Part shown: positions 15,233 through 29,695 of the stretch, piece after piece | How positions within the stretch are numbered: position 1 is the stretch's first letter | Layout of the letters: every line of letters begins with the position of its first letter | From: Pseudomonadota bacterium | GTDB lineage: Bacteria > Bdellovibrionota > Bacteriovoracia > Bacteriovoracales > Bacteriovoracaceae | NCBI GenBank assembly: GCA_027487515.1 | Contig: JAIYDL010000024.1 | Span: forward strand, 1 to 64,000 | Reading direction: 5' to 3' | DNA length: 64,000 nucleotides | Position numbers and translations under genes: made by a program | Notes under the pieces: model-generated | What the model saw: the letters and a program-made list of their open reading frames with translations, nothing else | Databases searched by the model: none | What the model was told of the DNA's origin: nothing

Positions 15233-15593
15233 CGAGAAATCCTTTGTTAGCTTCGATCGTATGCGAAAAAGTGACTTCTCAAAAATCGATAATAAGTATT
15301 CGACCCATCACTTAATATGATCGACTCGCCTCCTCATGTTGGAGAGACTCCAGCGGTCACTCCCCCCAAGCTTTGATCCTAGAATCAACGAAGCTCTACG
15401 GGGGCGATGAAGCTCATTCCAATCAATCGACAACACGCATTCGATCCCTTCGCTTTTAAGAACCGCCACGATCCTTCAAGTGACCCGTAAAGAAATTTTA
15501 ACGTGGACCACGAACAAAGTTTCAGAGCATTAAGCGTTGACACGGAAACTCCTGAATCCTAACTTAATTGGAGTTCCCTTAGCGAGGTTAGGT
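15233..15593. promoter_or_regulatory. Divergent intergenic region between the LysR-type and response regulator genes, with one promoter candidate
   Basis: 361 nt, AT-rich near both ends. A consensus -35 TTGACA at 15537-15542 is followed after 17 nt by a weak -10 TAACTT (15560-15565), suitable for the response regulator. ATCGA-type pentamers recur near 15256-15325 close to the LysR-type gene and may be self-regulatory sites, a guess. I see no further gene in the region. Confidence 0.45.
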
Positions 15594-16268
15594 ATGATGA
15601 ACATCCTTGTCGTCGAAGACGAAAAAAAAGTCGCAGCTCTCATACAACAAGGTCTCCGGGAGGCAGGCTATCAAGTCGAAACGGCCGAGTCCCCAACGCT
15701 CGCCCGCGAGGCCATGCGGACCCAACGCTTCGATCTGATGATCCTCGATGTCATGCTTCCGGATCAAAGCGGTATGGACTTTGCCAAAGAGCTCCGGATC
15801 GGTGGTCACAGGGGGTTCATCCTCATGCTCACCGCCCTGTCTACCACGAAAGACAAGATCCAGGGGTTAGATGCTGGGGCGGATGACTACTTAAGTAAGC
15901 CCTTCGAGTTTGAGGAGCTCCTGGCGCGAGTCCGGGCACTCTTTCGCCGAAAGATCGACGATAAGGCGCAACTGAAGAACGGAGAGCTCATCATGGACCT
16001 CATTGGTCGCTGGGTGACCCGGGAGGGCATCCGCATCGACCTTACCACCAAGGAGTTCACACTGCTTGAGCTGTTCCTCAGGAACGTGGACCGAGTCCTC
16101 GACCGGAATGCCATCGCTCGGCAAGTCTGGGGAACGGACTTTGATCCGGATTCGAACGTCATCGACGTCTACGTGAATCACCTGCGGAAAAAGCTCGATG
16201 TCCCGTTCCCCAGGAAGATCCTGAAAACCGTCGTGGGCCAGGGTTATGTCCTCAGTAAACTGGAATAG
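15594..16268 (+). CDS. OmpR/PhoB-family response regulator
   Basis: Receives phosphate from the histidine kinase encoded next and binds DNA. The receiver domain (residues 2-118) has the acidic pair Glu8-Asp9, phospho-acceptor Asp52 in LMILDVMLPDQSG, switch Thr in MLTALS and Lys in YLSKPF. The C-terminal winged helix (about 130-224) ends with GTDFDPDSNVIDVYVNHLRKK (split) and VVGQGYVL. It resembles the CopR/CusR-like subgroup. Two adjacent ATGs (15594, 15597) follow a GAGG Shine-Dalgarno. The kinase start overlaps this gene's end by 23 nt. The CP-ATP-grasp block begins just after the kinase, making it a candidate target. Confidence 0.94.
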   Translation: MMNILVVEDEKKVAALIQQGLREAGYQVETAESPTLAREAMRTQRFDLMILDVMLPDQSGMDFAKELRIGGHRGFILMLTALSTTKDKIQGLDAGADDYLSKPFEFEELLARVRALFRRKIDDKAQLKNGELIMDLIGRWVTREGIRIDLTTKEFTLLELFLRNVDRVLDRNAIARQVWGTDFDPDSNVIDVYVNHLRKKLDVPFPRKILKTVVGQGYVLSKLE

Positions 16269-17682
16269 GCACTTCAAGGGCATCCGCTTCCGCCTCACCC
16301 TGGTCTATGCCACCCTCTTTGGCCTGGTCCTGATCGTCTTTGCCTACGTCATCAGTAAGCAGTACTTGGACTCAGGCCGCGCCGATTTCGACTCGAACCT
16401 CATCAACCTTGCCATCGACCTCTCCGATCACCTCACCGTTGACAAGGCCGGCGCCGGCATGACCATCGAGGTCCCGCGCTCGGAGGTGGAGAAAGTCTTT
16501 CCCTTCATCCTGAAACAAACTCACTACGCCATCCGGGACCTCGCGGGAAAAGTGATCATGCGGGCGCCGGATGCTTCAAGTCTCCGGATTCCCTATGACC
16601 CCGAACTTCCGCTGAAGCCGGATTACACCCACCGACTCCTCACCTTCGAAAGTGACGGCGCAAACTACCGAGCGGTCAACATGCGAATCACCAACATTCA
16701 GGGAAAATCCGCGATCCTTCAGGTGGCCACCTCCTTTGACTCTGTCATCGACCGGGAGAAGAACCACCTCTTAGTGACGGTCCTCATGATTCCCATCTTG
16801 ATCCTGGCCTCGAGTTTTTTCTCCTTCGTGATCACGGGCAATGCTCTGGCCCCCATCCGGCAGCTGAGTAACACGGCCAATTCGATCGCGGCCCAGAACC
16901 TCTCCCTGCGCCTGCCCCTCGTGGACACGGGTGACGAAGTCGAGGAGCTCACCAAGACCCTTAACAATCTTCTGGCCCGCCTCGAGACCGCCTTCGAGGC
17001 CCAGGAAAACTTCGTCGCTAACGCCAGCCACCAGCTCAACACGCCCTTGGCGATCATCAAAGGGGAACTTGACGTCCTCGAGGCCAAAGAGCGCTCCCCG
17101 GAGGAGATCCAGCGGTTTCACCGCTCCCTTCGTGAGGAGTTGCAACGGCTGATCGAACTCGTGAAGAACATGCTCCTGGTGTCTCGGGTTTCGGCCGACG
17201 TTGTTCCGGTCACCTTCCACCCGGTCCGTCTTGATGACCTCCTCATCACGACCGCGGCCCGACTGCAGACCAAAGCGCGCGAAAAGCGCATGATCGTTCG
17301 CTTTAACATCGACGAAGCCTTGGGCCCCAAGGAGCTCGAGGTGCCGGCCGAGCGCCAACTCCTCGATGCGCTGTTTGAGAACTTACTTGATAACGCGATC
17401 AAGTACTCTCCGGAGGGGAGCACGCTTGAAATAGCGATCAAAGAGACCCATGGCAACACCGAGGTCTGCATTCAGGATGAAGGTCCGGGCCTCCAGGGAA
17501 ACACCTTCAATGAGATCGTCGGGGCCCGATTCAGGCGGGGTAATGGTCACGTCCCAGGCAGCGGGATTGGACTGTCCATTGCGGCCAAGATCGCTCAGGT
17601 CCATAACGCCAGTATTCTGCATGAGAATATTGCGCCTCGAGGGAGCTTATTTCGGGTTAGGTTTTCCTCTAAGGGCCCTTAA
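16246..17682 (+). CDS. Sensor histidine kinase (HAMP-HisKA-HATPase)
   Basis: Inner-membrane sensor paired with the preceding response regulator. Order in 478 residues: TM1 (about 13-35), periplasmic sensor of about 140 residues, TM2 (about 178-200), HAMP linker (NALAPIRQLSNTANSIA), HisKA with phospho-acceptor His262 in NASHQLNTPLAIIKGE, N box LFENLLDNAIKYSPEG, G1 box EDEGPGL-like (QDEGPGLQ) and G2 box GSGIGLSIA. The 23-nt overlap with the regulator implies translational coupling. The periplasmic sensor is not one I can assign to a ligand, but it points to an envelope signal. Confidence 0.94.
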   Translation: MSSVNWNRHFKGIRFRLTLVYATLFGLVLIVFAYVISKQYLDSGRADFDSNLINLAIDLSDHLTVDKAGAGMTIEVPRSEVEKVFPFILKQTHYAIRDLAGKVIMRAPDASSLRIPYDPELPLKPDYTHRLLTFESDGANYRAVNMRITNIQGKSAILQVATSFDSVIDREKNHLLVTVLMIPILILASSFFSFVITGNALAPIRQLSNTANSIAAQNLSLRLPLVDTGDEVEELTKTLNNLLARLETAFEAQENFVANASHQLNTPLAIIKGELDVLEAKERSPEEIQRFHRSLREELQRLIELVKNMLLVSRVSADVVPVTFHPVRLDDLLITTAARLQTKAREKRMIVRFNIDEALGPKELEVPAERQLLDALFENLLDNAIKYSPEGSTLEIAIKETHGNTEVCIQDEGPGLQGNTFNEIVGARFRRGNGHVPGSGIGLSIAAKIAQVHNASILHENIAPRGSLFRVRFSSKGP

Positions 17683-18009: not shown

Positions 18010-21000
18010 GTGATTAAAGTTAAAAACGCTCGAAAGAAGCTTAGTCCGTATAACCCGAACCAGGGTTTCATCGGATCAGTGAAAGTCGATGTTGCCAACT
18101 ATATCTTCTCCTCCCGAAGGAAGCGGGCCCCCTACAACCATTCCCGCGCCCTCGTGAAAAACCTCCTCTCGCGGGAGGTGTCCGTGCACCTCAAGGAGTC
18201 CCAGAACCTGACGAAGTTCATCCGCAAACGGGATCTGACCTTCCAGAAGTCGGACGCCGAAGGGAACTACAAGATCTTCACTGTCCCGTGCACGACAACC
18301 ATCGTGCCCCTGCAGAAATCCGTCTTCAACACGATCGAAAAAGCAGCGCAAGCGCTGATCGTCTCCCTCCGGTGTGTGATCCAAGACATCTACGGCTCGA
18401 AGTCCGTTAAAGATTCTCCGTTCGTGAAGTCACTTCCGGTGGAGATCCGAAGCATCTTCATCCAGGCGATCATCGATTCGCCCAACTATTTCCCGCAGCT
18501 GCATCACCCGAACATGAAGAAGTATCCCTTCTTCGATAACGTGGGCCTCGACCTCGTGCTGATCGAAGACTACGTGGAGCAATCGAAGAGCTTCGACCAG
18601 ATCCTGAAGTCAAAGCGCTTCGAAAAACTTCCGACGCAGCTCCCCTTCCGAATCCTAGAACTCAACGCCGGTGCCCCGAGTGGTGCCTCCAATAACATGA
18701 ACGTGCTCGAAGGCCACTACGAGCAGAACCCGGAGGTTCTCGAAAGCCTCGGGCGTTTGCTCCCGAACGATCACTTCTCCGTGCTAGCAGAGACCTACCG
18801 ATCCCTCGGTGAGGACTGGACCGGAATCAAAGACGGAATCCAGGTGATCCTTCCGCCGGGTGGAATGAACGGCGCCGCACCGGAGATCCATAACCTTGCC
18901 GCCTACTCCGGCCTGGTCTACGCCGACCCAGTCCAACTCTTCCAAGATGAGAAAGGCCACATCCGCCTGCGCACGATCAACGGTTCGAACCCGATCGTGA
19001 CAGCGATCTATTCGCGGATCAACGCTGACTCGGCCCTCTTCGACATCGACAAGGGAATCTTCCTTCGGGACCCCGACACGAATGAGCCGATCTTTCTCCG
19101 GGACTCGCTCAAACTCGGGCAAGAGGGAGAAGCTCCCCTCGTCCTCGACGTGAACGGGAACCCGATTCCGCTCCAGAGCGACTACGCAGTTCCGGGCCTT
19201 CTCGATGCGATCCTCGGGAAGCGCATCTACATGGGGGGCCTCAACCGCATCCTCGACAACAAGATCATCCTCGCAGCCCTCACAACCTACGCGCCGAAGT
19301 TCTTCGCCCCGAAACTGCGGGAGCTCGGGCTTCAAACGAACGGGCCCAAGATCACACCGCCAGACACCCTTCCGCCGAAGGCAGAATCCGTTAAAATCAT
19401 CGAAAAGAATATGGATGAGTGGGTCATCAAAGCACCGAACCTTTCCGGAGGCTCTGGGATCTACATCATGAAGACCTTGTCCGAAGCTCAGAAGAAAGAC
19501 GTGATGGACATGATCCGGAAGGACCCGGGCCATTACGCTTACCAAAAGCTGGTGAAGATCGCACGGATTCCAGTGGCGATGAAGGACAAGAACGGCTCCC
19601 GGTTCGCGAATCTCGCAGCCGACATCCGTCTCTGGGTCTTCTACGGAGGAGGGGCGAAGGCACTCCCGAAAATGACTCACAACGCTCTGGTGCGCTACGC
19701 CCCTGAGGAGAAAGGGCCCATGAGCTCGATCGTGAATACCTCGAAGGGCGGCGGCTACGCCCCGTTCGTCGTGGTCGACGATGTGGGGACGCCGGAGGCC
19801 GTGACGGCGTCTGAGTTCATCCGTCCGAAGGCCCCGGTTCCTCTTCAGACCCACCTCCCGATGTTCGTCGCCGCTCAGTTGATTCAGGTTGGCCGCCTCG
19901 CCTCAGAGATGTACAATCACCTGAAGAACGGGACCGCAGACAGCTATACCCTCCTGGGGTTAACCCTCTCCCTGAAAACGCAGTGCCGCGAGGTCCTCTC
20001 GTTCTTGAACCCCCGAGCGATCGAGCCGATCTACAAAGTGATCGACGTCCTCGAGACCAAGCAGGCCAAGACGGCGATCGCCGCCTATTTTGAAAAGATT
20101 AACACGAACCAGATTCGATTGGTTCAGCTCCTCGCAACCCTCGAAGGAAAGAACAAGCTCTCGAAGAACTTCCGTGACCTCATGGACGAGCTCCTGGTCC
20201 TCGACCAGGACATCGTTTATCAGAACTACACCGTTGAGCATCGGAAACACGACCGACGGATCCTCCGGGAGCTGCGCACGGCCCTCATCGAGCGCGCCGG
20301 AGACGACCTCAAACTTAAAAAAGAATTCGGCACCATCCTCTCCATCCTTCGGAGTTCCATCGAGGCGTCGTTCCCTCGAGAGACGATCACGGGTAAAACT
20401 GCCACCAACATGCTCCGCCTGATCGAAGGATTCTTGGCGACCGTGCGGGAGCGGCTCCAGAACTCGGAGAAGGCGATCGAGTTCGCGAAACTCTTCACTC
20501 CGGAAACGGTTCACCCAGAACTCAAGTTTGAAACCTTTGGACTTTCGGAAGCGTCCCTGGGAAAAAGCAGTGGCTTCGCCAACGCCTCCCAGCGTGAGTT
20601 CGCCACGGGCGAGCTCCTGACCGACTCTGACTATATCCCAGCGCACGTCCGCGCGGCGCGGACGGCGTGGCTCACGGTTGAAGCCGAGGCGAAGAAGCTC
20701 CCGGTCCGAGACCGGGAGGCCTTCCTGGCTCGGAAGCGCACGGCACACTTTCAAGAGTTTCCGTTCCTCGCGCGCATGACCGAGATCATGACCTCCCGTC
20801 GGGTCGGAGTGAAGGATCTCATCGAACTCATGCCGGCCATGCCCTATGCCATGTATAACCTCGAACAGTTCGCCAAGAAGCAGGGTCTGGCCCTCGAGGA
20901 GATCTTCACCAACGAACTGACGCCGAATAAGATCTCCATCCTCTCGTCGAAGAAGATCCGGGAGGCCCACCTCTCCGCCCGGGAAGACGCCGGAGAGTGC

Positions 21001-21774
21001 TTCGCGAAGAAACGCAAGTCCCACGGCCTCTTTTCTGACTCCGACATCTTCATCTGGGTCCGCAAAGAACTCGACCCGCTTACCCAGATCTACACCGCGG
21101 GCCACGAGGTCATCCACTTCCACCAGATCGAAGAGACCACCAAGATGGAAGCGAAGGCGCTCTCCGACGGCGCCATTGCCCAGGCGTACTTCCTGAACTT
21201 CTACGGAAACTTCCTCGGAGTATCTGCGGCGAGCCTCGAAGGCCTGAACGTTGACATCTCGGTGGAACGGCAGCCGCTCTATGGCCTCGCGGACCGGATC
21301 GTCCCCTACTTCTTGACCGATCTCATCACCGAGATCCGCACCGGGATCAATGCGTCCCGGGAAGAATACGATGCGGTCCTCGACAAGTACGGCTCACTCT
21401 TTGGCTACATGATGCCGAACTCAAACCAGGTCAAGGTCAAGGCCCTCCAGGAAGTGATCCCGGCGCTCGAAAACGCGAAGAACATCACCTTCGCCAAAGA
21501 GCTCGGGCTCGAGATCGGCTGGGATGAGATCCGCTCGGCGCTCCCGTCGGCGAACCGCCGCCAGATCAAGCTCAACGAGGCCAAGATCAAGCGCGCGATC
21601 CGCAAGGCACGGCCAGACTACGAGGCCCTGACGGCGATCGGGAATCACCAGTTCTACGGAGTGAGCTTCGCGAGGAAACTCGACCTCAATCGGTCGATCA
21701 CGCTGAGACCGATTCTGTCGACGATTTCTCTTGGGAATAGCTACAACCAGACGCAACAGCAACAGCAGCAATAG
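18010..21774 (+). CDS. Giant circularly permuted ATP-grasp protein with C-terminal HExxH metalloprotease-like region
   Basis: The GTG start has a GGAGAGG Shine-Dalgarno. Residues about 160-610 match the circularly permuted ATP-grasp (DUF404/DUF407) family in order: LDLVLIEDY, ILELNAGAPSGASNN, the region EIHNLAAYSGLVYADP, RTINGSNPIVTAIYSRIN, VPGLLDAILG, the ATP-binding VIKAPNLSGGSG (472-483), DPGHYAYQKLV and ADIRLWVFYGGG. Such enzymes are amide/peptide-bond-forming ligases. Residues about 620-830 are helical and may be an alpha-E (DUF403)-like segment (QLIQVGRLASEMYNHL). Near the C-terminus AGHEVIH places an HExxH zinc motif at 1032-1036, followed by KMEAKALSDGAIAQAY, where a third ligand could lie. 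The protein ends in a Gln run (QTQQQQQQ). No signal peptide: cytosolic. At 1254 residues it is much longer than usual members (about 480-850). First gene of a run 18010-25026. Confidence 0.88.
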   Translation: MIKVKNARKKLSPYNPNQGFIGSVKVDVANYIFSSRRKRAPYNHSRALVKNLLSREVSVHLKESQNLTKFIRKRDLTFQKSDAEGNYKIFTVPCTTTIVPLQKSVFNTIEKAAQALIVSLRCVIQDIYGSKSVKDSPFVKSLPVEIRSIFIQAIIDSPNYFPQLHHPNMKKYPFFDNVGLDLVLIEDYVEQSKSFDQILKSKRFEKLPTQLPFRILELNAGAPSGASNNMNVLEGHYEQNPEVLESLGRLLPNDHFSVLAETYRSLGEDWTGIKDGIQVILPPGGMNGAAPEIHNLAAYSGLVYADPVQLFQDEKGHIRLRTINGSNPIVTAIYSRINADSALFDIDKGIFLRDPDTNEPIFLRDSLKLGQEGEAPLVLDVNGNPIPLQSDYAVPGLLDAILGKRIYMGGLNRILDNKIILAALTTYAPKFFAPKLRELGLQTNGPKITPPDTLPPKAESVKIIEKNMDEWVIKAPNLSGGSGIYIMKTLSEAQKKDVMDMIRKDPGHYAYQKLVKIARIPVAMKDKNGSRFANLAADIRLWVFYGGGAKALPKMTHNALVRYAPEEKGPMSSIVNTSKGGGYAPFVVVDDVGTPEAVTASEFIRPKAPVPLQTHLPMFVAAQLIQVGRLASEMYNHLKNGTADSYTLLGLTLSLKTQCREVLSFLNPRAIEPIYKVIDVLETKQAKTAIAAYFEKINTNQIRLVQLLATLEGKNKLSKNFRDLMDELLVLDQDIVYQNYTVEHRKHDRRILRELRTALIERAGDDLKLKKEFGTILSILRSSIEASFPRETITGKTATNMLRLIEGFLATVRERLQNSEKAIEFAKLFTPETVHPELKFETFGLSEASLGKSSGFANASQREFATGELLTDSDYIPAHVRAARTAWLTVEAEAKKLPVRDREAFLARKRTAHFQEFPFLARMTEIMTSRRVGVKDLIELMPAMPYAMYNLEQFAKKQGLALEEIFTNELTPNKISILSSKKIREAHLSAREDAGECFAKKRKSHGLFSDSDIFIWVRKELDPLTQIYTAGHEVIHFHQIEETTKMEAKALSDGAIAQAYFLNFYGNFLGVSAASLEGLNVDISVERQPLYGLADRIVPYFLTDLITEIRTGINASREEYDAVLDKYGSLFGYMMPNSNQVKVKALQEVIPALENAKNITFAKELGLEIGWDEIRSALPSANRRQIKLNEAKIKRAIRKARPDYEALTAIGNHQFYGVSFARKLDLNRSITLRPILSTISLGNSYNQTQQQQQQ

Positions 21775-21787
21775 CTGCAAGGTAAGT

Positions 21788-24007
21788 ATGAAGCACGAAT
21801 TCCTGACTTCGGACGTTGAGCAGCTGCTCCCGTTTCTAGAATCAGTCCTCCAAGACGGTGGCCAGCGCCGCTATGACATCAACGGCACCATCTCACCGGT
21901 GCGGTTCCTGAACGGGATGAGTGGGTTCGCGTACCAGGTCGAGGGCATCGAAGGAGAGCTCCTCGTGGGACTCATCCTCGGGGGGACAGGGTACGCTCTC
22001 AAACGGATCCTCCGCCAGGACGGGGTCACGAAAGAGCGCCATGATTACTTTAACATTCAAGGCGGCCTCACGTTCTCGGCCGACCGAGAGGCCCTGAAGT
22101 CCGTCATCGTGGACTTCCACGAGATGGACCTCTCCTGCCCGATCCTCAATCACCTCTACAATTACCTCTCGCTGGAGTACAAAAACGCGGCCGAAGGTCG
22201 CTCCCAGACCGCACTGGTCCACGGGGTAGAGAAGTTCCTCCGCACCCTGGGCCGCTCCCAGGAAATTGTGCTTCCGGTCCGCCACAGGACCGAAGACTCC
22301 GCCATCGAGGCCATCTACAACCGAATCCTCGCCACCGAGCTCGATCCCGTGCTCACCTGGGAGGAGCGGCAACTCGTCTTCACGAACCTCCGGCAGGAGC
22401 GGGACCTGATTTTGGGAACCAAAATTCGTGCCCACCGGCTCTCGAAATTTGCCTTCAAGCTGAGCCTTTTGCGCCGGACTGCGGAGAACTTCTGCGCTCG
22501 ACTGGTGGCACGCCCGCTCGACAACATCTCGGGTCTTCTGTACCGGTACACCGTGGGAAAGATCATCTGGTTCTTCCAGACGGTCCGGAACAATCTTGGC
22601 TACTCCATTGCTCTGGCCGTCTACGGCCCGTTCACGTACTACTTCATCACCATGCCCATGAATCCGCATGCCATGCAGGCGGTGGGCCGAGTCCGGAGCG
22701 CGTACCTTGAGGCCAAGACAAGCCTCTCCGACCTTCTCGAAAGTTCTGAGAAAGTCGCGCAAGACCTCGGTGCAAAAGAGGCCATCGCCGGCGCCAACGT
22801 AACCCCAGTGAGCGACACCGTCTCGACCAACCAGGCGGCCCCACAGACGGCAAGCCCAGGACCGATTCCGCTTGCGAACATCATCTACCAGTCCCCGGTG
22901 ACTACGGCCTCCGCACAACCCCACGTGGTCAACCTCGGAGACGGCGTCACGGAAAAGATCGTGCCGGCGCATCTGAACATGCTCCTCACCACGGACTCTG
23001 ACTCCGTGAACCGAGCGACCTGGTCCGAGCGCATGAGTAACTTTAAACAGCTCCAGATCGCCTACGAAGAGAACATCGAATACGCCTCCCGGATGGGCCG
23101 CCTCGAGCAGCTCGAAACCCAGTACAACTTTCCGATTCAGGTCGAGGCCACCTGGGAAGAACTCGAACGCTACTCCCAGGCGATCTTTAAGCTCCGGGGC
23201 GAGAACCCGAACCTCTCTGCGAAGATGAAGCAGTATCTTTTCAACGAGATCAACCGCACCCAGCAGCTCCAGCTCTACCTCTGGGACCGGATGGGGCGCT
23301 TCATCCTCGATCAGATCTACGTCATGCTCGACCAGGACCGGGAACAGAAGCGAAACGACTACTACGTGGGCCGGGCCTTCGTCTTTATGGAAGAGATGAC
23401 CAATATCCTCTCCTGGCGCTACAAGGGCCTCAAGCTCCCGGCGGGCCACGAGCGGATCAGTGCTCTGGCAGAGCACTACGCCAAGACTCGGAAGGAAACC
23501 GGAACGGTGCTGCGCAATCTGGTGGCGAACTCCGACCTCTTCAAACAAAAAGACGTCTACGACACAAAAGAGTTCCGGGGCTACATGAAGCGCCAATGGG
23601 AAATTCTCTTCCTTCAGAATTCGAAAGCAGAAGAGGCCTCCAACATGGGACTCAACATGTACATCTGGTCCGTCAGAAACACCGTCTGGGTGCTCCAGTC
23701 GGTCTACTCGGCCAAGCGCGAAGAGCTCGCTCTACTTTTGAAGCGTGATGTCTCGGGCCAGATGTTCACACCGGCCGAGAACCTTGCCCGCACGAAAGTG
23801 TCCATGCTCTACGAAACCCTCCTCCACAACCTCACGCTCGAGTACGTGGGGATCCGGGAAGAGATCAAGAATCGCCTCGGGAAGGACATCGAATCGAGCC
23901 AGCGGATGATCGTCATCGACAACCTTAAAGAATTTCTCTCCGACCGTGAGAAACTCGACAACCTCAACATCGCCGCGAGTAAGAATACGGCCGGGACCAA
24001 ACTATGA
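21788..24007 (+). CDS. Large one-TM, mostly helical protein of the ATP-grasp locus
   Basis: Starts 13 nt after the ATP-grasp gene with an AAGGTAAG ribosome-binding site; an upstream in-frame ATG (21731) lies inside that gene and is rejected. 739 residues that I cannot assign to a family. Residues 1-250 look soluble (mixed alpha/beta, no signal peptide). One hydrophobic stretch at about 257-288 (IIWFFQTVRNN...IALAVYGPFTYYFITM) is the likely membrane anchor. A Pro/Thr/Ser/Gln linker (about 330-390) follows, and residues 400-739 are helix- and charge-rich. Probable topology: N-domain in the cytoplasm next to the ligase, C-part in the periplasm. Its stop overlaps the next gene's start (ATGA). Confidence 0.8.
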   Translation: MKHEFLTSDVEQLLPFLESVLQDGGQRRYDINGTISPVRFLNGMSGFAYQVEGIEGELLVGLILGGTGYALKRILRQDGVTKERHDYFNIQGGLTFSADREALKSVIVDFHEMDLSCPILNHLYNYLSLEYKNAAEGRSQTALVHGVEKFLRTLGRSQEIVLPVRHRTEDSAIEAIYNRILATELDPVLTWEERQLVFTNLRQERDLILGTKIRAHRLSKFAFKLSLLRRTAENFCARLVARPLDNISGLLYRYTVGKIIWFFQTVRNNLGYSIALAVYGPFTYYFITMPMNPHAMQAVGRVRSAYLEAKTSLSDLLESSEKVAQDLGAKEAIAGANVTPVSDTVSTNQAAPQTASPGPIPLANIIYQSPVTTASAQPHVVNLGDGVTEKIVPAHLNMLLTTDSDSVNRATWSERMSNFKQLQIAYEENIEYASRMGRLEQLETQYNFPIQVEATWEELERYSQAIFKLRGENPNLSAKMKQYLFNEINRTQQLQLYLWDRMGRFILDQIYVMLDQDREQKRNDYYVGRAFVFMEEMTNILSWRYKGLKLPAGHERISALAEHYAKTRKETGTVLRNLVANSDLFKQKDVYDTKEFRGYMKRQWEILFLQNSKAEEASNMGLNMYIWSVRNTVWVLQSVYSAKREELALLLKRDVSGQMFTPAENLARTKVSMLYETLLHNLTLEYVGIREEIKNRLGKDIESSQRMIVIDNLKEFLSDREKLDNLNIAASKNTAGTKL

Positions 24008-25026
24008 ACACTCGAACTTTTAACCTCCGTCCGCTGCTCGTCGCACTTGGCACCCTCTCCACTGGAGGCGCCTTCGCGCAGAGTACGAATGATCCGGTCT
24101 TTGCCCAGGTGAATAACCAGGGAAGCTACCAGGCCCAGAACCAGACCGTCCCAGGCCAGGTGATCCAGCGCTCCCTACCTCGGAAAGATCTGGCCCGTCG
24201 GCTGATCGACAACACTTCGCTCTCCTACTACCAGCAGTTCCTGGGCCCGACACCCGTGGGGTCGGGGTCCGAGACCTACAACGTCTTCCAAGAGGGCATC
24301 GACTCTCCTGGAACAGGGCGTGCCCCCCTCCAGTCATTCCATGCCCTGAACTTGCGGCATCAGATCACGCAAGACTGGGCGATCGGAACAACCCTCTCCG
24401 CCGTCAACGGCTACACCCGGGAAGTCCGGAACGAGAACGACAAAGGCGAAGTCTACACCAACACCTCGGACTGGCTCTTCTTCAACGCTCGCGCCTACGT
24501 CAACGTGCCCTCGCTGGCACTCTCATTCGGGACACTCTACACGACTCTCTCCTATGAGCACCCGACGTCGAACATCTCAAAAGATGATGAGATGCGCTGG
24601 GCGTGGGTGGTGGCGCAATCATTTGCCCTCAATCTTCCCAGCGTAAACTGGAGCGCCGGTCTCATGGGCCAGGTCTACAGGATGTACTACCAAAACAATG
24701 TCAAGGCCCCACCCTTCCCGGTTGAGTTCGGAGGAAGGCCCACGCCGCTTCAGACGATGATCGTCTCCGGTGGACCCTACGTGAACTACCGGTTCAGTGA
24801 CCGCTGGATGCTCGGGTCCGTCGTGACCTTCGACTGGGATCAGCGGGGAGTCCAGTCGAGCACCCAGGACTTCAACAATAACCTCTCCGACCGGGCCCGG
24901 CTGACGTTGAGCTACTTCCCGCAGAAGATTCCCTTCCTGAAGTCCGTGGGACTCTTCACGCAGACACTCCTGAAGTTTAGGCCTGAGACCAGCGCCATTG
25001 GTGCGGACCTTACACTGCGGTTTTAA
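24004..25026 (+). CDS. Outer-membrane beta-barrel protein of the ATP-grasp locus
   Basis: 340 residues with a signal peptide (MNTRTFNLRPLLVALGTLSTGGAFAQ) followed by amphipathic strands rich in aromatic residues and ending in ADLTLRF, a C-terminal Phe signature for BAM-mediated insertion. Residues 30-80 are a Gln/Asn-rich periplasmic stretch. No specific porin or transporter family is recognised. Four-base overlap with the previous gene and a downstream hairpin (25054-25076) make it the last gene of this transcriptional unit, suggesting it works with the ATP-grasp and membrane proteins. Confidence 0.85.
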   Translation: MNTRTFNLRPLLVALGTLSTGGAFAQSTNDPVFAQVNNQGSYQAQNQTVPGQVIQRSLPRKDLARRLIDNTSLSYYQQFLGPTPVGSGSETYNVFQEGIDSPGTGRAPLQSFHALNLRHQITQDWAIGTTLSAVNGYTREVRNENDKGEVYTNTSDWLFFNARAYVNVPSLALSFGTLYTTLSYEHPTSNISKDDEMRWAWVVAQSFALNLPSVNWSAGLMGQVYRMYYQNNVKAPPFPVEFGGRPTPLQTMIVSGGPYVNYRFSDRWMLGSVVTFDWDQRGVQSSTQDFNNNLSDRARLTLSYFPQKIPFLKSVGLFTQTLLKFRPETSAIGADLTLRF

Positions 25027-25053
25027 GTCTCTGCGATCAAAGTCATGACTGAC

Positions 25054-25076
25054 TGAAGGCCCCCGAGAGGGGTCTT
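25054..25076 (+). terminator. Hairpin after the barrel gene
   Basis: Stem GAAGGCCCC / GGGGTCTTC (nine pairs including one G-T) with a CGAGA loop, followed by TTCCGTT, 28 nt after the stop codon. Likely separates the first three genes of the locus from the two transglutaminase-like genes. Confidence 0.6.
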
Positions 25077-25208
25077 CTTCCGTTGACTTGCCTGAACCAA
25101 ATTCCATCTGTCACTCCCGAATGTAATCTTTACTAAACTTCGCGAATGATCTCGAAGTCACTCCGGGTTTTTGATACACCACTGTGCATATTCTCTTCCG
25201 GAGGTTCT

Positions 25209-26882
25209 ATGAAGACCAAGCACTATCTCATGATGTCCCTGACTCTCGCCGTGCTCTCTAGCCACGGCCACGCGCAGATGCTGCCGAACCAAGACGACTG
25301 CGACGAAGAGACTCAGGACTGCTCAACCCAAGGAAGAGTTGGCGACGCCAACAGGTCGATCTATCCCTTTAAGCCGTTTACGACAGATCACATCAAGGCC
25401 CGGCTCACGGCCCTCAACGAGGGAGAGAACTACATCTCCAACGTCTTCCAAATGGAGCGCCGGGGCCTTAACCGCGCCAACACGAAAGTCCAGCCCTGGG
25501 GTGGTCCGTACTGGGCACTCTACCAGGGGATGATCGGGAACACCTACCAAGACAAGGATCTTGATACCTTCGTCTTCTCACTCCGCCGGAACCTCGACTG
25601 GAAGAAGAACGTCAGTGACTACAAGAAGCGCGCCGAGAAGGTGCATCCGAAAATCTACGACCTCGATGAAGAAGAACTCGGAAAGCTTGCTCCGTCGGAG
25701 AAGTATGATCTGCTCCTCGGAGACACGAGCTTTGACCTTACGAACCGCATCTGGGCCTACGCCGAGAAATGGGGAAGTGAAAAGAAATGGGGCTTCCTTT
25801 CGGCGATCAATCTCCCGGACGGCTTCCGCGTCCCGAGTGTGAACCAGCGGATGGCCCTCTGGGAAGGGATTTGCCACGGTTGGGCGGTGGCCGCAGGACA
25901 CACGCCGCGGCCTGAGCGCACCGTCACGGTGACTCTCCCGAATGGCAAGCGCATGCCATTCTACCCGAACGACATCAAGGCCCTGATCTCTCTCATGTGG
26001 GCGAACTCCACACTCCAGTCGAACGTGATCTTCGAAGGTAACCGCTGCAACAAGAAGAATCCTGACAAGGACAGAAATGGCCGCTACATCGACTTGGTTA
26101 AAGACCGGGATGACGTGAGCCTCCTCCCCCGCTGCGCCGACGTTCACCCAGGGATTTTCCACGTCTCCTTGGTGAACATCCTCGGAGTCGAAGGTCGAAG
26201 CTTCGTGGTTGATAAAACCGCCGAGGCACCGATCGCAAACCAGCCGGTCTCCGGGTACGAACTGTACTACTTTAACCCGCGCACCGGGAAAGAGGGTCCG
26301 CTCTCGGAGTCTGTCCTCTCCCGCACCATCTACGGTGACAAGGACCCGTTCCGGAGCTCCCGGAACGCCGAGGCCACCCACATCGTCGGCGTCGAAGTTA
26401 AGCTGAAGTACGTCGACTGGGAGTACCCGAGGAAGGCGGTAACGAACGGCCCGGGGGATGACAAGATCTCGGACTTTAGCTTCACCTACGACCTCGAGCT
26501 CGACTGGCGCGGAAACGTGGTCGGAGGTCAATGGCGAGTGGCGCGGAAAGGAGGCCCGGGAGTGGTCAACACGAAGACCCACCAACCGGACTTCTTCTGG
26601 GTTGTCCCTCGGGATTGGAAAGAGTACTTCAAGCCACTCTCTCTGCCAGCGTGGAACTTCTCTCGCAGCACTCTTCCACCGAGTGACTTCGCACCGGCCG
26701 CGCGCGGCGCCCATAGCTTTATCTACGAAGAATCCAAGCGCTACTGGGGCGTCTCTCCGATGTGCCCCGTGTTCCCGGAGAACGGAGGAGCACCAATCAT
26801 GGTTGAGTGCGAGTTCCGCTACCCGCGGCCTCAGCCGCTCATCAACGTCATCGAGACACTCCTCGATCAGTCGCGAAGGTAG
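25209..26882 (+). CDS. Secreted transglutaminase/cysteine-peptidase-like protein A (TGase-elicitor-like)
   Basis: The start at 25209 follows GGAGG by 5 nt and opens a signal peptide (MKTKHYLMMSLTLAVLSSHGHAQ); an upstream in-frame start adds only non-hydrophobic residues. In 557 residues a Cys-His-Asp triad can be placed by comparison with the next gene: Cys222 in WEGICHGWAVAAGH, His318 in HPGIFHVSL, Asp335 in SFVVDKTAE. The C-x-GWA arrangement resembles the family of the oomycete transglutaminase elicitor and its bacterial homologues, which cross-link or cleave Gln/amide bonds. This copy has an extra N-terminal segment with four Cys (DDCDEETQDC) and a C-terminal extension of about 130 residues with Cys pairs. 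Periplasmic or secreted. Followed after 6 nt by its paralogue. Confidence 0.8.
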   Translation: MKTKHYLMMSLTLAVLSSHGHAQMLPNQDDCDEETQDCSTQGRVGDANRSIYPFKPFTTDHIKARLTALNEGENYISNVFQMERRGLNRANTKVQPWGGPYWALYQGMIGNTYQDKDLDTFVFSLRRNLDWKKNVSDYKKRAEKVHPKIYDLDEEELGKLAPSEKYDLLLGDTSFDLTNRIWAYAEKWGSEKKWGFLSAINLPDGFRVPSVNQRMALWEGICHGWAVAAGHTPRPERTVTVTLPNGKRMPFYPNDIKALISLMWANSTLQSNVIFEGNRCNKKNPDKDRNGRYIDLVKDRDDVSLLPRCADVHPGIFHVSLVNILGVEGRSFVVDKTAEAPIANQPVSGYELYYFNPRTGKEGPLSESVLSRTIYGDKDPFRSSRNAEATHIVGVEVKLKYVDWEYPRKAVTNGPGDDKISDFSFTYDLELDWRGNVVGGQWRVARKGGPGVVNTKTHQPDFFWVVPRDWKEYFKPLSLPAWNFSRSTLPPSDFAPAARGAHSFIYEESKRYWGVSPMCPVFPENGGAPIMVECEFRYPRPQPLINVIETLLDQSRR

Positions 26883-26888
26883 GGTGTT

Positions 26889-28115
26889 ATGAAGAGCCTT
26901 CTCCTCATCTCCGCACTCGTCTCTGCCACCGCCTTCGGGCAAGCGGCGAAAACAGAGGAAGACCCGACCCCTCTCTTCGAGGGTCAACGGGAAGTACGCT
27001 CCCTCTCGGAAGCGGCGAGGCTGGGTCTTAACCGGGGTCAAACGGCGCTGGACCTCTGGTCCGGTTCCTACTGGCCAACCTACCAGGGGGCCCTGGCCGT
27101 GCGGTACCGGGCCCAGGAGCTGAAGCCTCTTCTGGAAGGAAAAGCTCAGTGGGACAAGCACCGCGAGCTCTACGAGAAACTCCCGCTCTACAGCTTCATC
27201 GGGCGCGAGAACGAACTCTCTCCGGCGGAGAAGTACGACCTCCTCGTTGGGGACGAAGAGATGACCCTCACGAAATACGCCTGGGAGCTCGGAGAGAAGA
27301 GTAACCTGGGAGGGAAAGTGAAGACCTGGCGCGGGCTCTGCGACGGCTGGGCTTCCGCAGCCCAGATGATGCCGAGGCCTCGGAAGAGCGTGACTCTTGT
27401 GACCCCGAAGGGACTCCCACTGACGTTCTTTCCCGAAGACATCAAGGCCCTGGGGTCTCAGATGTACGCCCGCTCTCAGGGACCCGTCATCTTCATCGGT
27501 AAGCGCTGCCGGCCCGTGATCGGGACCTTCACCGGCGCCTGCGACGAAACCAATCCCGGAACCTTTCACCGGGCCCTCCTGACTCGAGTCGGGAAGCTCC
27601 GGAAGACCTTCATCGCCGACGTGTCCCCCGGGGGAGAAGTCTGGAACTATCCGGTGGAGAGCTACCAGGTCACCTACTACAACGTGTTCGACGATGAGGA
27701 GTCGCAAGACTTCGAGACCGTGAAAGAGGCGTTCGATAAGAAAGGCCGGTTCGCACGCCCAGGGCGTCGGGATCCACGGACGGCGTTTATTGTGGGCGTG
27801 AAGCTCACGGTGAACTACCGGGACATGCGCGACGCGAACTTAAGCGAGACGGATGGACCACTGCTGGATAAGGTTCTCACCAAGACCTACGTCTACGACC
27901 TCGAACTCGACGGCCAGAACAATATCCTCCGCGGGGAATCCTTTTCGAAGAACCTTCCGGATTTCATCTGGGCCCCGAATGACCGGACGTATCCGCTCTC
28001 GGACGCAGAGGAAAGGAATGCTTCGACGTCAGTCGTTGAGCTCTCGAAGGTTTCTGCGAAACGAGGACAGCCGCTCGCACGGATCGTGGAGCGGTTGTTC
28101 GAGCTCGCAAAATAG
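26889..28115 (+). CDS. Secreted transglutaminase/cysteine-peptidase-like protein B, paralogue of A
   Basis: 408 residues with a signal peptide (MKSLLLISALVSATAFGQ). It aligns by eye with protein A along its length: YWPTYQGALA with YWALYQGMIG, SPAEKYDLLVGD with APSEKYDLLLGD, FPEDIKALGS with YPNDIKALIS, SYQVTYYN with GYELYYFN. The triad is Cys151 (WRGLCDGWASAAQ), His227 (NPGTFHRAL), Asp244 (TFIADVS). It lacks the Cys-rich N- and C-terminal extras of A, so it is the compact form. The pair probably arose by tandem duplication and then diverged (identity looks low, perhaps a quarter to a third). The stop lies 2 nt from that of the convergent metalloprotease. Confidence 0.8.
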   Translation: MKSLLLISALVSATAFGQAAKTEEDPTPLFEGQREVRSLSEAARLGLNRGQTALDLWSGSYWPTYQGALAVRYRAQELKPLLEGKAQWDKHRELYEKLPLYSFIGRENELSPAEKYDLLVGDEEMTLTKYAWELGEKSNLGGKVKTWRGLCDGWASAAQMMPRPRKSVTLVTPKGLPLTFFPEDIKALGSQMYARSQGPVIFIGKRCRPVIGTFTGACDETNPGTFHRALLTRVGKLRKTFIADVSPGGEVWNYPVESYQVTYYNVFDDEESQDFETVKEAFDKKGRFARPGRRDPRTAFIVGVKLTVNYRDMRDANLSETDGPLLDKVLTKTYVYDLELDGQNNILRGESFSKNLPDFIWAPNDRTYPLSDAEERNASTSVVELSKVSAKRGQPLARIVERLFELAK

Positions 28116-28117
28116 GT

Positions 28118-28783
28118 CTATTCGTGGAGTGGCTTTGACGAGAGCTTCTTAGCAATGTCTCCCACGATGTAGCCGATGGCATACGGGGCAGAGTCGTACT
28201 CGCTGGCCGACCGGTGGTCGAAGCCGAGCTTGTGGGTCCACTCGTGGGCCAAGTTGGCAGCGACGTCGGCGGGCGCGTAGTTCCGGAAGAAGCGCCAGTT
28301 GATGTTGATCGTATTCGTCGTCGCCGAGGTGTACCCGATGACCCGGGACCAGGGCCGGTTGTAGAGACGAAGGTAGAAGTTCATCTCGCCAGGGGTCTGG
28401 GGCTGGAGCGTTTCGCGCCCTTCCATGAACTGCTCGTAGATTTGCTCGTTCGTGAAGCCCTTGTTCGAAGCGAAGGCAGGTTCGCCTTTGGAGTTCTTGA
28501 AATTGAGCACCCGGTCCTTAAACTCTTCGCTGTTGACGGCTGCCTCGAGGACCTTGAAAGCGCTCTGAAGCTTCTGCAGGGAGGCCCCCGAGAAGCCCTC
28601 GATCTGCATCCCCCGAACCTGGAGATCGCGGGTTTCAACCAGCGCCGGATCGAGGTACTGGGCGTCCTCTACCGAGAAGGTCGCAGGTGCGTGTGAGTCG
28701 TCATGGGAGAGCATGAGCTGGTTCTGTGAATCTTGGAGCCCCAAGGTAGCAAACAGCGCCATTGAAAAAACCCATTTTTTCAT
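28118..28783 (-). CDS. Secreted zinc metalloprotease with metzincin-type motif
   Basis: 221 residues starting with a short hydrophobic leader (MKKWVFSMALFATLGL), so exported or membrane-tethered. The zinc-binding motif HEWTHKLGFDH (180-190) fits HExxHxxGxxH, with Glu181 as general base. The usual downstream Met-turn is not obvious; a SAPYAIGYIVGD segment takes its place, as I recall for some small bacterial metalloprotease families. N-terminal residues 25-110 could be a propeptide. It is convergent with, and only 2 nt from, the second transglutaminase-like gene. Substrate unknown; a role in maturing or trimming products of the same locus is an inference from position. Confidence 0.82.
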   Translation of the reverse strand: MKKWVFSMALFATLGLQDSQNQLMLSHDDSHAPATFSVEDAQYLDPALVETRDLQVRGMQIEGFSGASLQKLQSAFKVLEAAVNSEEFKDRVLNFKNSKGEPAFASNKGFTNEQIYEQFMEGRETLQPQTPGEMNFYLRLYNRPWSRVIGYTSATTNTININWRFFRNYAPADVAANLAHEWTHKLGFDHRSASEYDSAPYAIGYIVGDIAKKLSSKPLHE

Positions 28784-28924: not shown

Positions 28925-29695
28925 ATGAAAAGGCTCTTCTTCCTCATGCTTTGTTCTGCCAGTGCCTGGGGGCAATCTCACGTGGTCATCAGCTACTTCG
29001 ATCCCTTCGGAGGAGCGGCGTTTAACAACTCGGAGCGCGTCGCCAGAGCGCTCGAGAGTAAACTCCGTGGTCACCCATCGCTCACCGTCCACCTCTGTGC
29101 TCTTGAGACCGTGTTCGAGCGCTCCTTCGGGCAGCTCGAGGCCTGCGTGCGCTCGCTCCCCACTCCCCCGACAGTTGTCCTGGGTCTTGGAGAAACGGGA
29201 TGCAATTTGAAAGTCGAGCTGCTGGGAAGAAATCTCGATCACTCATTTGGCCCGGACAATAGCGGGGTCATGCGGAAAACAAGTCCGATCAATCCGGGCG
29301 GTCCGCAGGAACTCGGTCTGCGCTACCCGCTGGCACAGATGTACTGCGCCCTCTCACCCGAAGAGCGACGAGCGGTGGTGGTCTCGAATGATGCCGGAAG
29401 CTTTGTGTGTAACAACGTCGCCTACCAGTACGCCTGGCGCTACCCCGAGGAGCGCTTCGGCTTCATCCACGTGCCGTCGAATGACTGCCGGAACCTCGAG
29501 CGGAAAAATCGGGACGTGATACCGGCACTCGAGAAAATGATCCTGGCCGCTACGCTGACCGATGCCTCCGCCCGACTCCCGGTCAGGAAAGTCGAACTCG
29601 ACGTCCTTCGGGAGCGGCACCGAGGGGACTCGTGCCTCAAGGAATTCTACAAACGAGCTAGGGGAATTGACGAGCAAGGTCCGTGGCGATTTTAA
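28925..29695 (+). CDS. Secreted pyroglutamyl-peptidase-like cysteine peptidase (C15 family)
   Basis: Canonical C15 enzymes remove N-terminal pyroglutamate and are cytosolic. This 256-residue copy starts with a signal peptide (MKRLFFLMLCSASAWGQ). The family landmarks follow: SYFDPFGGAAFNNSE (substrate loop), Glu98 in CNLKVELLGRN, Cys162 in NDAGSFVCNNVAYQ and His182 in FGFIHVP, consistent with a Glu-Cys-His active site. A C-terminal extension of about 60 residues adds two basic segments. Export of such an enzyme is unusual, and its closeness to transglutaminase- and metalloprotease-like genes (same region, about 140 nt past the metalloprotease start) hints at a shared peptide substrate. Its end overlaps the next gene's by 38 nt, tail to tail. 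Confidence 0.83.
   Translation: MKRLFFLMLCSASAWGQSHVVISYFDPFGGAAFNNSERVARALESKLRGHPSLTVHLCALETVFERSFGQLEACVRSLPTPPTVVLGLGETGCNLKVELLGRNLDHSFGPDNSGVMRKTSPINPGGPQELGLRYPLAQMYCALSPEERRAVVVSNDAGSFVCNNVAYQYAWRYPEERFGFIHVPSNDCRNLERKNRDVIPALEKMILAATLTDASARLPVRKVELDVLRERHRGDSCLKEFYKRARGIDEQGPWRF

Follow-up and report, generated by a model that had tools for sequence, protein, structure and literature searches.

A permuted ATP-grasp protein with a HExxH extension and a conserved glutamine tail, encoded beside candidate membrane partners in uncultured Bdellovibrionota-type genomes

Three adjacent genes in the 64,000-nucleotide stretch of DNA analysed here (the window), which we call g1, g2 and g3, may encode a trans-envelope ligase-peptidase unit that performs peptide or glutamine amide chemistry, a reading to which we assign a probability of roughly 45%. 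At its center stands g1, a permuted ATP-grasp protein with an additional HExxH domain and a terminal run of glutamines. This tail is a strictly conserved feature of g1 that the sequence-only reading of the window had not mentioned. The gene set belongs to uncultured relatives of predatory bacteria and is apparently undescribed; our literature search found no report of such a system in Bdellovibrio.

The six open reading frames g1-g6 were found where the sequence-only reading had placed them (window 18010-28783; Table 1), and homologues with identities of 40-95% back the coding status of the locus genes. Judged from homologue starts, g2 begins at ATG 21788 and not at TTG 21731. The probable start of g4 is ATG 25209, downstream of a GGAGG. 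With these two starts revised, the proposed layout of three coupled genes, a pair and a convergent gene stands: g1, g2 and g3 are tightly spaced (a 13-bp gap and a 4-bp overlap), g4 and g5 form the pair, and g6 converges on them. Because a terminator-like stem (around 25060-25079, seen by eye and not returned by a terminator scan) separates g3 from g4, the locus likely comprises two operons and the convergent g6. A response regulator and a histidine kinase (15537-17682) immediately precede g1 on its strand; they are kept in much of the genus and may have a regulatory role.

Table 1. Genes, domains and motifs of the locus, in window coordinates.
Feature	Coordinates	Strand	Description	Basis
g1	18010..21774	+	1254 aa CP-ATP-grasp / HExxH protein, without signal peptide, predicted cytoplasmic	Pfam, homologues
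g1 residues 212-340	18643..19029	+	first half of permuted ATP-grasp (LELNAGAPSGASNN)	PF04174; 3n6x alignment; invariant E217, N219, P223, S224, G225
g1 residues 457-585	19378..19764	+	second half (K474, GGSG 480-483, D538, R540, N576, GGG 580-582)	PF14403; 3n6x; invariant residues
g1 residues 598-860	19801..20589	+	helical domain without known relatives	AlphaFold2 model; PDB fold search; not alpha-E
g1 HEVIH (1032-1036) and E1047	21103..21150	+	zincin-like site	invariance; weak DUF6782 match
g1 C-terminal tail YNQTQQQQQQ	21742..21771	+		44/44 complete homologues; a single match in each of 24/24 genus genomes
g2	21788..24007	+	739 aa orphan membrane-associated protein	homologues, model, co-occurrence with g1
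g2 residues 270-288	22595..22651	+	highly conserved marginal membrane segment LGYSIALAVYGPFTYYFIT	invariant G271, A275, P281-T283, F286, I287
g3	24004..25026	+	340 aa probable outer-membrane beta-barrel; signal peptide, last residue Phe	homologues
g4	25209..26882	+	secreted TGase_elicitor-family cysteine enzyme	Pfam, 3tw5 homology
g5	26889..28115	+	second secreted TGase_elicitor-family enzyme	Pfam, conserved residues
g6	28118..28783	-	secreted small metalloprotease, HEWTHKLGFDH	motif, orthologues

The first part of g1 matches two Pfam families, CP_ATPgrasp_2 (PF14403, 8.8e-18) and CP_ATPgrasp_1 (PF04174, 6.3e-10), with scores that exceed the gathering cut-offs (64.8 vs 32 bits and 39 vs 23.1 bits, respectively). 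Both halves of the permuted fold align with the structure 3n6x, and in this alignment g1 retains the ATP/Mg-binding and catalytic residues of permuted ATP-grasp enzymes. Twelve diverse homologues of 41-70% identity share with g1, without exception, the glycine loop and the residues E217, N219, K474, D538, R540 and N576. Because the ATP-grasp positions do not vary among these homologues, catalysis has likely been retained, although we know of no close homologue with known activity. The same invariance argues against a g1 that has lost ATP-grasp catalysis and serves as a structural or regulatory scaffold. The large extension domains, without assigned function, might otherwise point to such a role, which we consider highly improbable.

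Some 650 C-terminal residues of g1 extend beyond the CP_ATPgrasp families and have no known relatives. Structure prediction, as suggested in the sequence-only reading, yielded models of this extension and of g2 and revealed no relatives: the AlphaFold2 model of g1 residues 598-1254 has a mean pLDDT of 89 and finds no match at E <= 0.001 in a PDB fold search, and the g2 model likewise matches no fold at E <= 0.001 in the PDB or in a viral library. Within the extension, the HExxH motif and the later glutamate E1047 are invariant across the homologues aligned, and DUF6782, a putative metallopeptidase family, matches 26 of 33 g1 homologues weakly (best 1.3e-4, below the cut-off). The HExxH domain would most likely cleave or edit a peptide. 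Together, the CP_ATPgrasp matches and the invariant HExxH bear out the earlier description of g1 as a permuted ATP-grasp protein with a zinc-protease-like motif.

A ligase and a probable hydrolase fused in the single g1 chain would also suit an enzyme that makes and breaks a small, glutathionylspermidine-like amide metabolite in the manner of GspSA, with g2 and g3 aiding export or sensing. Indeed, 3n6x, the only solved relative of g1, is named a putative glutathionylspermidine synthase. However, the hydrolase is zincin-like and not a CHAP domain, the protein-glutamine enzymes that recur nearby suggest peptide substrates, and fold searches with the g2 model detected no recognisable transporter fold, which together make a metabolite substrate decidedly unlikely.

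The glutamine tail sets g1 apart from all its neighbors. The pattern Y-[NH]-[QS]-[TSAN]-[QE]-Q(n) closes every complete homologue, 38 of the 44 ending in YNQTQQ plus zero to six more glutamines and the remaining six in near variants. The exact degenerate pattern matches once in each genus genome and its reversed control gives 0 matches, and none of the 644 other ORFs of the g1 loci has at least three glutamines among its last six residues. The single match per genome rules out a tag placed on several proteins genome-wide. Nor does the tail reflect a signal in the DNA for the gene that follows: synonymous codons vary within it, and the tail persists in loci where g2 sits on the opposite strand. 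In the AlphaFold2 model of g1, tail residues beyond YNQ are disordered.

Four further permuted ATP-grasp homologues suggest that the tail goes with the enzyme. The distant homologues L100 and L101 have their own HExxH and Gln-rich ends (TQQQQ and QSQQ), whereas the shorter L102 and L103 have neither. Because the long homologues are tailed and the short ones are not, the tail appears to be intrinsic to g1 and not tied to g2, as far as these two cases suggest. A docking peptide for g2 only is less likely since L100 and L101 are tailed in genomes without a g2 profile match, two cases that may be convergent. All four proteins (L100:6601-9870, L101:5973-9437, L102:5985-8420 and L103:6843-9350) also bear apparent Sec/lipoprotein signal sequences, which is odd for an ATP-dependent enzyme.

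The tail may even be g1's own substrate, which the ATP-grasp part would extend or join and the HExxH part would trim. This would amount to self-tagging, membrane-coupled amide ligation, possibly connected to secreted glutamine-acting enzymes. We rate this reading as rather unlikely because the cytoplasmic tail and the secreted g4-g6 would not meet without export.

The two putative membrane partners, g2 and g3, match no family above cut-off in Pfam or NCBIfam, and neither does g6. In the g2 model (mean pLDDT 79), an N-terminal domain rich in beta structure is followed by a long helix, within which residues 270-288 lie, and then by a disordered linker and a C-terminal domain made of helices; confidence is low along the membrane segment. 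The hydropathy of this segment is marginal (in the window protein, the best 19 residues stay below 1.3 Kyte-Doolittle), and the flanking lysines and arginines (3.6 on the N side vs 2.6 on the C side) lean towards an N-in orientation. The one-TM scaffold proposed earlier remains a conserved, putatively membrane-associated neighbor of g1, with a marginal membrane segment. Most g3 homologues have signal peptides and a C-terminal Phe, and on these two features g3 is a probable outer-membrane barrel, as the sequence-only reading had it. A second g2 copy, consisting of the N-terminal part only, lies distant from g1 in one genome (G173:C238:63906-64874).

Among 241 genomes of the phylum, the g2 profile matches 35, which are exactly the 35 with long-form g1; the other ten g1 matches are weaker ATP-grasp relatives without g2. 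In all named loci whose contig reaches far enough, g2 adjoins g1, and g3 usually comes next. Bacteriovoracaceae/Halobacteriovoraceae-type and Oligoflexia loci have the genes as g1-g2-g3, and the Bdellovibrionales loci of family f12 have them in a divergent arrangement (-g3 -g2 +g1); the trio thus outlasts operon inversion in another family. The association is near-universal only for g1-g2(-g3). The six genes that had been proposed as one system are not a fixed unit: the transglutaminase-type enzymes recur in three families, but the pair is missing from some loci and g6 is multi-copy. A scan of a genome collection returned 51 loci. All come from metagenome assemblies, and most carry the names Bacteriovoracaceae, Halobacteriovoraceae, Bdellovibrionales or Oligoflexia; a few records go under other names. 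So far, the gene set has been seen only in uncultured Bdellovibrionota-type genomes.

Downstream of the trio, g4, g5 and g6 encode predicted secreted enzymes. g4 and g5 match TGase_elicitor at 3e-35 and 2e-31 (122 and 109 bits vs a cut-off of 25), g4 is homologous to 3tw5 (3e-20), and C243 and H339 (numbered on the 578-aa ORF of g4) occur in 33 of 33 homologues. The metzincin-like motif of g6, HExxHxxGxxH, is invariant in 16/16 orthologues; HMM and PDB searches gave no hit for g6, and it belongs to a multi-copy secreted family. Next to g6, and adjoining it in 15 loci, is a pyroglutamyl peptidase gene (28925-29695; PF01470, 7e-18) whose product has a signal-peptide-like N-terminus and invariant Glu, Cys and His. 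Pyroglutamyl peptidases of this kind usually reside in the cytoplasm. In several loci (L111:17048-19000 and relatives, not in the window), an L,D-transpeptidase (YkuD_2) is encoded between g3 and the TGase genes. No anti-phage defence system was recognised, as PADLOC matched none of g1-g6.

How firmly these enzymes belong with the trio is the question on which the principal alternative turns. g1-g2-g3 alone could be the unit, and the TGase pair, g6 and the pyroglutamyl peptidase an independent island of secreted enzymes for prey digestion or nutrition, adjacent through shared local gene order. In line with this, the stem seen by eye lies between g3 and g4, each genome holds several scattered members of the TGase and g6 families, and the core stands without those enzymes in Halobacteriovoraceae-type loci and G004; the TGase pair is also absent next to the core in G009 and G016. 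By contrast, 6 of 17 genomes have a TGase_elicitor gene no more than 8 kb from g1, where 0.62 would be expected, and 10 of 22 have a Gln_deamidase_2 gene no more than 1 kb away, where 0.17 would be expected. Both counts are far above chance, with expectations that assume independent genomes and so disregard their relatedness. The linkage spans three families (f1, f12 and f8) in differing arrangements, and in G015, of the window genus, a Gln_deamidase_2 gene sits inside the cluster. Most of the genus has a g6 orthologue next to the cluster, and in the Oligoflexia locus L151 the gene after g3 encodes a g6-type protease. The linkage of g1 with secreted Gln-directed cysteine enzymes is real, if loose, and we regard a separate island as a substantial possibility that falls short of probable.

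If g1-g2-g3 instead act as a trans-envelope unit, cytoplasmic g1 would work with g2 at the inner membrane. The ATP-grasp half would form an amide bond using ATP and the HExxH half would most likely cut or edit a peptide, making a fused pair of synthesis and hydrolysis. g2, its C-terminal domain in the periplasm, would probably take the reaction or its product to or through the inner membrane, and g3 would be located in the outer membrane. The secreted TGase_elicitor, Gln_deamidase_2 and small metalloprotease enzymes could then work outside the cytoplasm, on the product or on its targets, and the invariant tail may serve for docking, for inhibition or as a self-acceptor. A tag attached to an envelope protein or to peptidoglycan, the role raised in the sequence-only reading, would be a speculative extension of this account. 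Export signals are present in g4-g6 and absent from g1; because the inner membrane separates g1 from these enzymes, any substrate they share would require export. The weak membrane segment of g2, the orphan regions without a structural relative and the TGase pair that is not always linked all speak against a trans-envelope unit. In such an arrangement amide ligation would be tied to the inner as well as the outer membrane of a Gram-negative cell, and the chemistry would likely involve glutamine side chains. The tail gives a sharp handle on the system, being terminal, strictly conserved, easily deleted and readable by mass spectrometry, as do the built-in protease-like domain and the one obligate partner, g2.

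For permuted ATP-grasp/transglutaminase gene neighbourhoods, Iyer and colleagues reportedly predicted peptide-bond chemistry in 2009. The sequence-only reading had tied the locus to this system. Searches with the products of the locus confirmed CP_ATPgrasp in g1 and TGase_elicitor in g4 and g5; alpha-E (PF04168) is absent from the window genome (G000) and from 56 of the 57 relatives searched. The possibility that the g1 extension or g2 conceals an alpha-E domain was ruled out, as no similarity was detected in either. Because alpha-E is absent and neither protein resembles it, the locus is a variant distinct from the Iyer/Aravind alpha-E/Anbu system, and the proposed tie falls away. In the only relative with alpha-E (G026:C235:669-1980), the gene directly follows a permuted ATP-grasp gene of the ordinary kind, which lacks the extension. 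The alpha-E/transglutaminase/Anbu operon, whose physiological hypotheses were still unconfirmed for the Anbu version in 2017 (PMC6376114), resembles the present locus in that a permuted ATP-grasp protein is linked to transglutaminase-type cysteine enzymes and amide-bond chemistry is predicted (PMC6376114). The present locus differs in lacking alpha-E, and within the cluster neither a Transglut_core protein nor Anbu is seen beside g1. Rather, it adds the HExxH extension, the Gln tail, g2 and g3, and its cysteine enzymes are secreted and come from other families, PF16683 and PF18626.

Compared with CP_ATPgrasp_2/CP_ATPgrasp_1 proteins (PF14403, PF04174; 3n6x), g1 has the same permuted fold motifs and conserved residues but carries the long C-terminal addition. 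The catalytic Cys and His of the Phytophthora TGase_elicitor GP42 (3tw5) have counterparts at the same positions in g4 and g5, which are, however, bacterial, secreted and paired. GspSA is a bifunctional glutathionylspermidine synthetase/amidase that is not permuted, has a CHAP amidase and has no membrane partners. It shares with g1 an amide ligase and a hydrolase (in g1, a probable one) on one chain; g1, by contrast, is permuted, has a HExxH domain in place of the CHAP amidase and has g2 and g3 as membrane partners. In Pup tagging (GGQ/E) and in the RimK extension of the S6 tail, ligase chemistry takes place at a C-terminal Gln/Glu tail. A C-terminal Gln/Glu tail together with ligase chemistry, which is predicted for g1, is what these systems have in common with the present locus, where, unlike in either of them, the tail is on the ligase g1 itself and occurs once per genome.
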